Shown: piece after piece, positions 21,532 to 24,506 of the stretch | How positions within the stretch are numbered: position 1 is the stretch's first letter | How the letters are laid out: every line of letters begins with the position of its first letter | Source: Bacteriovorax sp. Seq25_V | GTDB taxonomy: Bacteria; Bdellovibrionota; Bacteriovoracia; Bacteriovoracales; Bacteriovoracaceae | Assembly (NCBI RefSeq): GCF_000447795.1 | Contig: NZ_AUNI01000004.1 | Span: 1-52,971, forward strand | Length of the DNA stretch: 52,971 nucleotides | Reading direction: 5' to 3' | Position numbers and translations under genes: made by a program | Notes under the pieces: generated by a model | What the model was told of the DNA's origin: nothing | Seen by the model: only the letters and a program-made list of their open reading frames with translations | Database searches by the model: none

Positions 21532-23532
21532 ATGACTGATCTATTCAAAGAAGCCATTTTAAATGGAATACCTTCAACTCTTCCACCGAAGAAAGAATAC
21601 GAAACAAGTATTAACCACGCTCCAAAAAGAAAAAATATATTAAACGAAGAAGAGAAAAAGTTAGCACTACGAAATGCCCTTCGTTATTTTCCAGCAGATC
21701 TTCATCCTGAACTTGTGACAGAGTTTAGAGAAGAATTAGAAAAGTATGGTCGCATTTATATGTACCGCTATCGCCCAGATTATAAAATACATGCGAGATC
21801 AATTAACGATTACCCACACAAATCAAAGCAGGCCGCTGCAATTATGCTGATGCTTTCAAATAACCTCGATTATGCTGTTGCACAACATCCACATGAGCTT
21901 ATTACTTATGGTGGAAATGGCGCAGTTTTTCAAAACTGGGCACAATATCTACTGACAATGCAATATCTTGCGACAATGACAGATGAACAAACTCTTGTTC
22001 TTTACTCTGGTCACCCAGCAGGGTTATTCCCTTCTCACAAAGATGCTCCAAGAGTTGTTGTTACAAATGGAATGATGATTCCAAATTATTCGAAGCCAGA
22101 TGACTGGGAAAAATTTAATGCACTTGGTGTAACTCAATACGGTCAAATGACAGCTGGTTCATTCATGTATATTGGGCCACAAGGAATTGTTCACGGAACT
22201 ACAATTACAGTATTAAATGCGCTCAGAAAGATTTCAAAAGAAGCTGTAACAGAAACAGCCGGAAAGGTTTTCGTGACAGCTGGACTTGGAGGAATGTCAG
22301 GAGCTCAACCTAAAGCAGCTGTTATTGCAGGATGTATTGGAGTGGTGGCTGAAGTTAATCCTAAGGCCGTTAAGACGAGACATGAACAAGGATGGGTTGA
22401 TGAAGTATTCACTGACCTCGACGAATTAATGACGAGGATTAAAAAGGCACAGACTAATAAAGAAGCCGTATCTCTTGCGTACCAAGGAAATATTATTAAT
22501 CTATGGGAAAAGTTTGCAGAAAGTGATCTTCATGTAGATATTGGTTCTGACCAAACGTCTCTACACAATCCATGGGCCGGTGGTTATTACCCTGCCGATC
22601 TTTCTTTTGAAGAATCAAATGAAATGATGGCAAATAACCCTGAACAATTTAAAAAAGAAGTACAAAAAAGTTTAGTAAGACACGTCAATGCAGTTAATAA
22701 ACTTGCAGATAAGGGAATGTATTTCTTTGATTATGGAAATGCATTTCTTCTTGAGGCCTCACGTGCCGGAGCTGACATTATGAAGCCTGGTTCTACAGAG
22801 GATTTCAAGTATCCTTCATATGTTCAAGACATCATGGGACCAATGTGTTTTGACTATGGCTTTGGCCCTTTCAGATGGGTTTGTACATCAAGTACACAAG
22901 AGGACCTTGACCTGACTGACCAACTTGCAACAGAAGTACTTGAAAGACTCATGAAAGAATCTCCAAGTGAAATTACTCAACAGATGCAAGATAATATTGT
23001 TTGGATTAAAGGAGCTAAAGAGAATGACCTCGTTGTTGGATCTAAAGCACGTATCCTTTATGCAGACAGTGACGGGCGGATTGAAATTGCTCTTGCATTT
23101 AACAAGGCCCTTCGAGACGGAAAACTAAAAGCTCCAGTTGTCCTTGGTCGCGATCATCACGATGTTTCAGGTACAGACTCTCCTTTTAGAGAGACATCAA
23201 ATATTTATGATGGATCAAGGTTCACAGCAGATATGGCCGTTCAAAACTTTGTTGGAGACTCTTTTAGAGGAGCAACTTGGATTTCTCTTCATAACGGAGG
23301 TGGCGTTGGCTGGGGAGAAGTTATGAATGGTGGCTTTGGAATGGTACTTGATGGAAGTGAAGACTGTGATCGTCGTATTAAATCAATGCTATTTTGGGAC
23401 GTAAATAATGGTATCAATAGACGATCATGGGCAAGAAATGAGGGCGCTACTTTTGCAATTAAGAGAGCGATGGAAAAAGAGCCTCTTTTAAAGGTAACTA
23501 TTCCAAATCTTGTAAGTGACGATTTACTATAA
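21532..23532 (+). CDS. hutU: Urocanate hydratase
   Basis: 666 residues, longer than the common 557-residue form but typical of the long bacterial urocanases. NAD+-dependent hydration of urocanate in histidine breakdown. Motifs: RYRPDYKIHARSINDYPHKS, YGGNGAVFQNWAQYLLTMQY, TAGLGGMSGAQPKAAVIAGC (NAD-binding), HNPWAGGYYPADLSFEE, and the C-terminal ISLHNGGGVGWGEVMNGGFG. No hutH, hutI or hutG is nearby, so it stands alone. AAAGGGA precedes the ATG. Its terminator is fused with the start of the next gene. Confidence 0.95.
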   Translation: MTDLFKEAILNGIPSTLPPKKEYETSINHAPKRKNILNEEEKKLALRNALRYFPADLHPELVTEFREELEKYGRIYMYRYRPDYKIHARSINDYPHKSKQAAAIMLMLSNNLDYAVAQHPHELITYGGNGAVFQNWAQYLLTMQYLATMTDEQTLVLYSGHPAGLFPSHKDAPRVVVTNGMMIPNYSKPDDWEKFNALGVTQYGQMTAGSFMYIGPQGIVHGTTITVLNALRKISKEAVTETAGKVFVTAGLGGMSGAQPKAAVIAGCIGVVAEVNPKAVKTRHEQGWVDEVFTDLDELMTRIKKAQTNKEAVSLAYQGNIINLWEKFAESDLHVDIGSDQTSLHNPWAGGYYPADLSFEESNEMMANNPEQFKKEVQKSLVRHVNAVNKLADKGMYFFDYGNAFLLEASRAGADIMKPGSTEDFKYPSYVQDIMGPMCFDYGFGPFRWVCTSSTQEDLDLTDQLATEVLERLMKESPSEITQQMQDNIVWIKGAKENDLVVGSKARILYADSDGRIEIALAFNKALRDGKLKAPVVLGRDHHDVSGTDSPFRETSNIYDGSRFTADMAVQNFVGDSFRGATWISLHNGGGVGWGEVMNGGFGMVLDGSEDCDRRIKSMLFWDVNNGINRRSWARNEGATFAIKRAMEKEPLLKVTIPNLVSDDLL

Positions 23533-23562
23533 AAACTCTCAAGTAAAATTAAAATATTTTCG

Positions 23563-23594
23563 AAAAGGACTAAATGAAATTAGTCCTTTTTTTT
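23563..23594 (+). terminator. Terminator of hutU that contains the start of the next gene
   Basis: Perfect 11-bp stem AAAAGGACTAA (23563-23573) / TTAGTCCTTTT (23580-23590), a 6-base loop ATGAAA, then a T-tract through 23594. The loop's ATG is the start codon of the downstream lipoprotein gene, and the AAGGA of its ribosome-binding site lies in the ascending stem. Confidence 0.8.
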
Positions 23595-24506
23595 ATATCA
23601 TCTATTCTCCTTACCTCTTGTGCAACGAATAGTCAGAATCGTTCAATTAGTAGTATCGAAGACTCTTCCTGCACAGAACTTTTTAAAACTTACTTACATG
23701 CTACGAGCCCATTTAATTATCAGATTAATCTCGATAGAGTTTTCAAAGAAATCGAGGCCCTTGAAAGTAAGTTTCCAAATCAACTAACTACAAAGATAGA
23801 GGGGCAATACGACGGTGAGCCAATCTATCGTATCGATATGCCTGGTTATGGAACTGGAGATAAAAAGAAAATTATTATCACTTCAGGTGTTCATGGAAAT
23901 GAATCTGTGGGTGTCAGTACTTTATTAAAAGTCATTAATCAAATTGTATATGATAAGAACATGAGAACAAAGTTTGACTTTGTTTTCTTCCCTGCTCTAA
24001 ACCCAGGGGGATTACGTCAAAACACTCGTCGTCTAAAGAACGATGTCGACCTCAATCGAACTTTTACAAAAGGAAAAGAACAAGGTGTTACAAAAATTCT
24101 TCAAGAATCACTCGATGGAGAGGAATTTGAACTCGCTCTCGATCTTCACGAGGCCTACACCAAAAATGGATTCTTTGTTATCAAAGCAGATAAGGAAGAC
24201 GATCAATTAACTAAAGAATCTTTATCAATCATTGATGAAAGTTATATGCTAACTTCAAAAGATGGCCAGTATCCGTACAATGTACCAAATGTAAAAGATC
24301 CGCGTAAAACATCTTACATTCTATACTCACCTGGTGAGACAGCATCATTTAATCCTGGAACACTCAAAGGTTTTTTCAAAACAAACTTGAAGGCCAAGTA
24401 TGCTTACACCATTGAGTCTCCGGGACAAATAGAGCTTCGAAAGCGACAAGAAATTTACATCAATATCGTTCGAAGCTTTCTCGATAATTACTCTAAACGA
24501 GATTAA
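23574..24506 (+). CDS. M14-family zinc carboxypeptidase/deacylase lipoprotein
   Basis: 310 residues. Lipoprotein signal MKLVLFFISSILLTSCA with lipobox LTSC. Zinc hydrolase motifs: ITSGVHGNESVGV (HxxE), FPALNPGGLRQNTRRLKNDV followed by DLNRTF, ALDLHEAY (third zinc ligand) and YTIESPG (catalytic Glu), as in the succinylglutamate desuccinylase/aspartoacylase branch. It may trim peptidoglycan or prey peptides at the envelope; the substrate is unknown. Its first codons lie inside the hutU terminator hairpin. The stop overlaps the convergent lipocalin stop by 4 bases. Confidence 0.82.
   Translation: MKLVLFFISSILLTSCATNSQNRSISSIEDSSCTELFKTYLHATSPFNYQINLDRVFKEIEALESKFPNQLTTKIEGQYDGEPIYRIDMPGYGTGDKKKIIITSGVHGNESVGVSTLLKVINQIVYDKNMRTKFDFVFFPALNPGGLRQNTRRLKNDVDLNRTFTKGKEQGVTKILQESLDGEEFELALDLHEAYTKNGFFVIKADKEDDQLTKESLSIIDESYMLTSKDGQYPYNVPNVKDPRKTSYILYSPGETASFNPGTLKGFFKTNLKAKYAYTIESPGQIELRKRQEIYINIVRSFLDNYSKRD

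Follow-up and report, generated by a model that had tools for sequence, protein, structure and literature searches.

The hairpin that forms the predicted intrinsic terminator of hutU in Bacteriovorax sp. Seq25_V probably doubles as an attenuator of the lipoprotein gene that follows it, and the junction would be one case of a wider, partly conserved class of arrangements in the family. In the window, that is, the whole analysed stretch of 52,971 nucleotides, hutU occupies positions 21532..23532 of the forward strand (666 aa, stop codon 23530-23532), and its identity as urocanate hydratase is firmly established by the TIGR01228 model (E 1e-127, above the cut-off). The hairpin lies 29 nt beyond this stop, at 23562-23591, and reads GAAAAGGACTAA-ATGAAA-TTAGTCCTTTTT: eleven Watson-Crick pairs join 23563-23573 to 23580-23590 in a perfect 11-bp stem, to which a G-U pair (23562-23591) is added on the outside. 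The 5' arm (23562..23573, forward strand) contains the Shine-Dalgarno sequence AAGGA at 23565-23569, 4 nt from the ATG; the six-base loop ATGAAA (23574..23579, forward strand) consists of the start codon and codon 2 of the lipoprotein gene; and the 3' arm (23580..23591, forward strand) supplies codons 3-6, Leu-Val-Leu-Phe. The hairpin thus spans -12 to +18 relative to the ATG. The terminator U-tract, a run of eight T at 23587..23594 of the same strand, overlaps the 3' arm and encodes Leu-Phe-Phe of the signal peptide. The sequence-only reading had described the stem, the T-tract, the ATGAAA loop, the AAGGA within the stem and the Phe-Phe encoded by the T-tract, and both the sequence and the predicted fold bear out that description, coordinates included; its first interpretation is partly supported.

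The second gene, 23574..24506 on the forward strand, encodes a lipoprotein of 310 aa with an M14/succinylglutamate desuccinylase-like domain (AstE_AspA/Peptidase_M14-like match), a signal peptide MKLVLFFISSILLTSC and a lipobox, LTSC, read from the sequence. An in-frame TAA directly precedes the ATG at 23574, and no other ATG, GTG or TTG occurs within the first 70 codons, which rules out an alternative start and leaves this ATG as the sole usable one; consequently, the start of the lipoprotein really is the hairpin loop. Termination must take place somewhere behind hutU; what calls for explanation is the overlap of the terminator with the start of the next gene.

An intrinsic terminator is expected to consist of a G+C-containing stem of about 5-12 bp and a short loop, followed at once by a U-rich tract; the hutU hairpin has a 12-pair stem with three G-C pairs, a 6-nt loop and T8. 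An 81-nt RNA folds into the same hairpin, with a minimum free energy of -13.4 kcal/mol vs a shuffled mean of -6.7 (z -2.84). Across 853 kb of this genome, 175 terminator-like hairpins have a median of -13.1 kcal/mol, and the hutU hairpin by itself, at -12.7 kcal/mol, is close to that value; within 5 kb it is among six sites that look like terminators. Terminators of E. coli act at full strength if they lie more than 27 nt past the stop codon, and nearer to it the terminating ribosome represses them (PMC4824070); at 29 nt, beyond this limit, the hutU hairpin should therefore terminate well. A terminator 30 bp inside the coding region, or within the first 100 bp, still works there (PMC4824070). 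In both strength and position the hairpin is thus predicted to be an ordinary intrinsic terminator, in agreement with the earlier proposal that a terminator behind hutU overlaps the next start. It was also claimed that the stem is too exact to have arisen by chance, and this view gains support from codon redraws: when codons from the second on are redrawn synonymously by genome usage against an unchanged 5' arm, 0.9% of draws yield the full 11-bp stem.

The proposed masking of the next start stands in part. In the predicted fold of the read-through RNA, the Shine-Dalgarno region AAAAGGA is almost never unpaired (probability ≤0.04), so that the ribosome site is masked through this element, but the AUG remains exposed in the loop. 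Consistent with both observations, the preferred reading is that the hairpin, which is the predicted intrinsic terminator of hutU and in the focal species only also holds the start of the lipoprotein gene, would lower lipoprotein expression twice, by termination and then by masking. The U-tract would stop most RNA polymerases leaving hutU; in the minority of RNAs that read through, the Shine-Dalgarno sequence and codons 3-6 would be held in the stem. With its Shine-Dalgarno sequence paired, the read-through RNA should give weak lipoprotein expression, barring transcription that begins within the 5' arm. The terminator therefore sits within the first codons of a gene presumably cotranscribed from upstream, and it would act as a fixed attenuator between two same-direction genes rather than as a sensor of a known signal. 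That transcription really ends at this junction, what share of it reads through and how translation is affected are inferences.

The arrangement of the hutU junction recurs. In a survey of 2.0 Mb (853 kb of the focal genome, G000, 340 kb of G002 and 400 kb each of G048 and G043), genes and hairpins were called with our own scripts, and hairpins of at least 8 bp followed by a U-tract were counted in codons 1-40, 40-80 and 80-120 of 1462 genes against synonymous codon redraws. The first 40 codons hold 13 such hairpins vs 2.4 expected (Poisson P about 1.5e-6), the later bins 2 vs 2.0 and 0 vs 1.4, respectively. A stricter terminator definition retains 11 vs 1.67 expected. Hairpins without a U-tract stay near expectation (32 vs 22.6 and 13 vs 10.4), as do those followed by A (3 vs 2.0); since the excess is seen only with the U-tract, it is specific to terminators. 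Furthermore, all 13 early hairpins lie 6-113 nt past the stop of a same-direction upstream gene, which indicates that they are intergenic terminators absorbed into the second gene. Some of the survey cases may be miscalled starts. A similar test in G133, from another family of the phylum, gave 2 vs 0.5 expected, numbers too small to judge. Perfect hairpins of at least 8 bp around the start codon, with or without a U-tract, occur in 1.6% of the 1462 genes. Rho is present in the focal genome and in the phylum; its loss is thereby ruled out as a cause of extra intrinsic terminators, and the embedded ones are not a substitute for it. A separate observation in the focal genome concerns a ParA-like gene (C19:60459; L143:435-461). 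Here a perfect 12-bp stem, CATATGACTTCC-AAT-GGAGGTCATATG, is followed by TTTTT and holds in its 3' arm both the Shine-Dalgarno sequence GGAGG and the ATG of the gene; this hairpin is not conserved in relatives.

At three other junctions, gyrA-lipoprotein, rbfA-truB and phaR-OMP, the hairpin persists from genus to genus under a changing sequence, a sign that the structures themselves are selected. At the first (L176-L187), the start of a TPR lipoprotein gene lies inside the last part of gyrA or next to it. Of 16 genomes, 11 have a 9-11 bp hairpin there, located 3-11 nt past the gyrA stop and encoding signal peptide, as against the 1.6% of gene starts with a perfect hairpin of at least 8 bp in general. 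Its stem is GGCGCTGAT...ATCAGCGCC, or one base off, in five species of one genus, TAGGGCCGCAA...TTGCGGCCTTA in the focal genome (copy L183, near 1475-1506), TAAGGCCAGC...GCTGGCCTTA in G050 and CGGGGTGCTAA...TTAGCACCCTG in G002, the sequences being unrelated between genera. At the same junction in G109 (L188, reverse strand), a predicted hairpin extending from about 34 nt before to 16 nt after the match pairs the Shine-Dalgarno sequence GGAG and the ATG with signal-peptide codons and has no U-tract; it is predicted to be a case of ribosome-site masking minus the terminator.

The truB hairpin (L160-L171; C19:40490 in the focal genome) covers codons 8-17, over the GPxxGP motif, about 19-34 nt past the upstream stop; the name rbfA is our reading of the upstream ORF and of its place before truB. 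Every one of the 12 truB genes read in three genera has a stem GGCCC...GGGCC or GGGCC...GGCCC with a U-rich tail, with C-G to G-C covariation in which a third codon position takes part. The hairpin is absent from truB of three other genera, and the GPxxGP motif is missing from TruB of other genera. At the phaR-OMP junction (L212-L226; C9:98753-99409 in the focal genome), a hairpin with a U-tract lies over the signal peptide of an outer-membrane protein whose gene follows a phaR-like gene. Across an alignment of ten species, pairing holds in 92% of cells and 11 cells have changed on both sides, a covariation reached by none of 500 shuffles, which keep the columns but not the relatedness of the species. 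Three species of genus g11 carry a different hairpin of 12-13 bp with a U-tract at the equivalent place, in the first codons. Taking into account that the shuffle ignores relatedness and that the covarying stems are partly fixed by the protein (GPxxGP in TruB, PA...AG in the OMP signal peptide), the turnover of the whole stem at gyrA is given most weight. At these three junctions the start codon stands, for the most part, ahead of the hairpin, so that ribosome-site masking is not the common element; what they would share is a terminator between neighbours that sits at the beginning of the second coding sequence, where its U-tract often supplies codons for the hydrophobic stretch of a signal peptide.

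The hutU-lipoprotein pair itself is restricted to the focal species and absent from every other genome examined. Orthologues of hutU are 70-94% identical in 19 other genomes of the family, the closest named match outside the source genome being that of Bacteriovorax sp. DB6_IX (85%). In the readable 3' flanks the neighbour differs and is often convergent, and the hutU stop is often followed at a short distance by a hairpin with another sequence (G048, G050, G049, g16, L232), for example GGGGAGC-ACTT-GCTCCCC-TTTTTT in G050. As to the origin of the gene, the 666-aa hutU of the Bacteriovorax-like genus is 74-78% identical to many Bacteroidota genes, and most other family members carry a form only 34-38% identical; judging from these identities, it was likely acquired by transfer. 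Relatives of the lipoprotein occur at 45-48% identity in five genomes of the family and at 35-37% in three, none of them behind hutU, and a further related-locus search with the lipoprotein as query returned no match. A start-codon hairpin of the focal kind was not found in the lipoprotein relatives from G112, G127, G047, G109 and G076. The relative in G047 (L006, reverse strand, upstream of the match) has no ATG, GTG or TTG at a sensible start; GGAG is followed there by ATA, and an ATA start codon could be meant. In G002, which belongs to another genus, a 35% homologue lies behind another gene, and its start codon falls within the loop of a perfect 11-bp hairpin of unrelated sequence, GATTAGTGCTC-AATGA-GAGCACTAATC-ATTTTT.

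Being known from one species, the focal overlap may be recent and neutral. A rearrangement would then have put the lipoprotein gene behind hutU, and the terminator would have chanced to supply AAGGA and ATG; the hairpin would end hutU only, and low or absent expression of the lipoprotein would be tolerated. The absence of the gene pair from all relatives is what such gene packing would leave behind, the A-rich 5' arm of a terminator readily resembles a Shine-Dalgarno sequence, and the ParA-like start hairpin of the same genome is likewise unconserved. Nevertheless, the rarity of the full stem among synonymous draws, the G002 homologue that starts in the loop of a different hairpin and the conservation of similar overlaps at other junctions make this account somewhat unlikely. 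Still less probable is that the hairpin only blocks translation of RNA arriving from hutU, as in phage T4 I-TevI and IS elements, while the lipoprotein gene has a promoter of its own, from which transcripts starting at about 23569-23574, in the 5' arm, could not form the stem. The mechanism is established for I-TevI (PMC2988022); RNA starting at 23569 or 23571 keeps almost no structure (-1.0 or -0.3 kcal/mol), and the AT-rich DNA just upstream of the hairpin contains TAAAAT and TATTTT. Such a transcript, however, would be leaderless or devoid of a Shine-Dalgarno sequence, and a simple consensus scan found no promoter-like site of at least 9/12 at the place needed for a start in the 5' arm.

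The sequence-only reading had also raised a switch. In a regulated form of it, temperature, a protein or ribosome position would melt the hairpin and thereby shift hutU termination one way and lipoprotein translation the other. The presence of the Shine-Dalgarno sequence and the U-tract in one hairpin does mean that both functions must shift together. However, no Rfam model matches at the hairpin up to E 1, no alternative pairing partner or aptamer was seen and the focal junction is not conserved; a signal-responsive switch is therefore very improbable.

A broader and tentative proposal, to which we give a low probability, is that terminators in the first codons of second genes act as coupling sensors in Bacteriovoracaceae. 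Ribosomes running close behind the polymerase over the stop and the new start would prevent the hairpin and let the operon continue, while lagging translation would end transcription at once. The gyrA and truB hairpins are near enough to the upstream stops for ribosome position to control them. If coupling is sensed in this manner, intrinsic termination would do a job that is usually Rho's, and its most extreme case would be the hutU junction, with the start codon as the loop.

The value of the focal overlap lies in the entry it gives to a recurrent, partly conserved arrangement in Bacteriovoracaceae, the relatives of the predatory Bacteriovorax. The conserved junctions are natural test cases for the control of intrinsic termination by ribosome position, and embedded terminators are a warning for start-codon annotation. 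The use of the U-tract as signal-peptide codons explains how one stretch of DNA does two jobs.

Annotation usually places terminators in intergenic DNA, and a prediction that falls within a coding sequence is apt to be doubted. The E. coli frd terminator is known to act as the ampC attenuator, and the hutU junction resembles this system in that the terminator of the upstream unit doubles as the attenuator of the next gene; the ampC attenuator sits in the leader, whereas the focal hairpin covers the Shine-Dalgarno sequence, the start codon and coding sequence. With the tR2 constructs (PMC4824070) the junctions would share the dependence of efficiency on the spacing from the upstream stop and a terminator that works early in the coding region, although those are engineered E. 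coli constructs. A limited literature search found no description of such an arrangement outside phage. In phage T4, mobE and segF carry intrinsic terminators in their 5' coding ends, and partial termination of about 30% lowers the transcript of mobE (PMC2988022). Here too, a predicted U-tract terminator lies inside the start of a gene presumably dependent on upstream transcription; unlike these single mobile phage genes, the present ones are chromosomal, some of the junctions are conserved across genera, and the focal hairpin also holds the Shine-Dalgarno sequence and start codon. In T4 I-TevI, soc and e, and in Aeh1 mobE, hairpins mask the ribosome site in read-through RNA (PMC2988022). As in the I-TevI type, the hutU stem holds the Shine-Dalgarno sequence of the downstream gene; I-TevI differs in having a late promoter beside the hairpin that yields RNA unable to fold in this way, whereas the consensus scan found no promoter here, and its hairpin is not described as a terminator. 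By analogy, the hutU junction would combine a terminator of the T4 mobE/segF type with masking of the I-TevI type.
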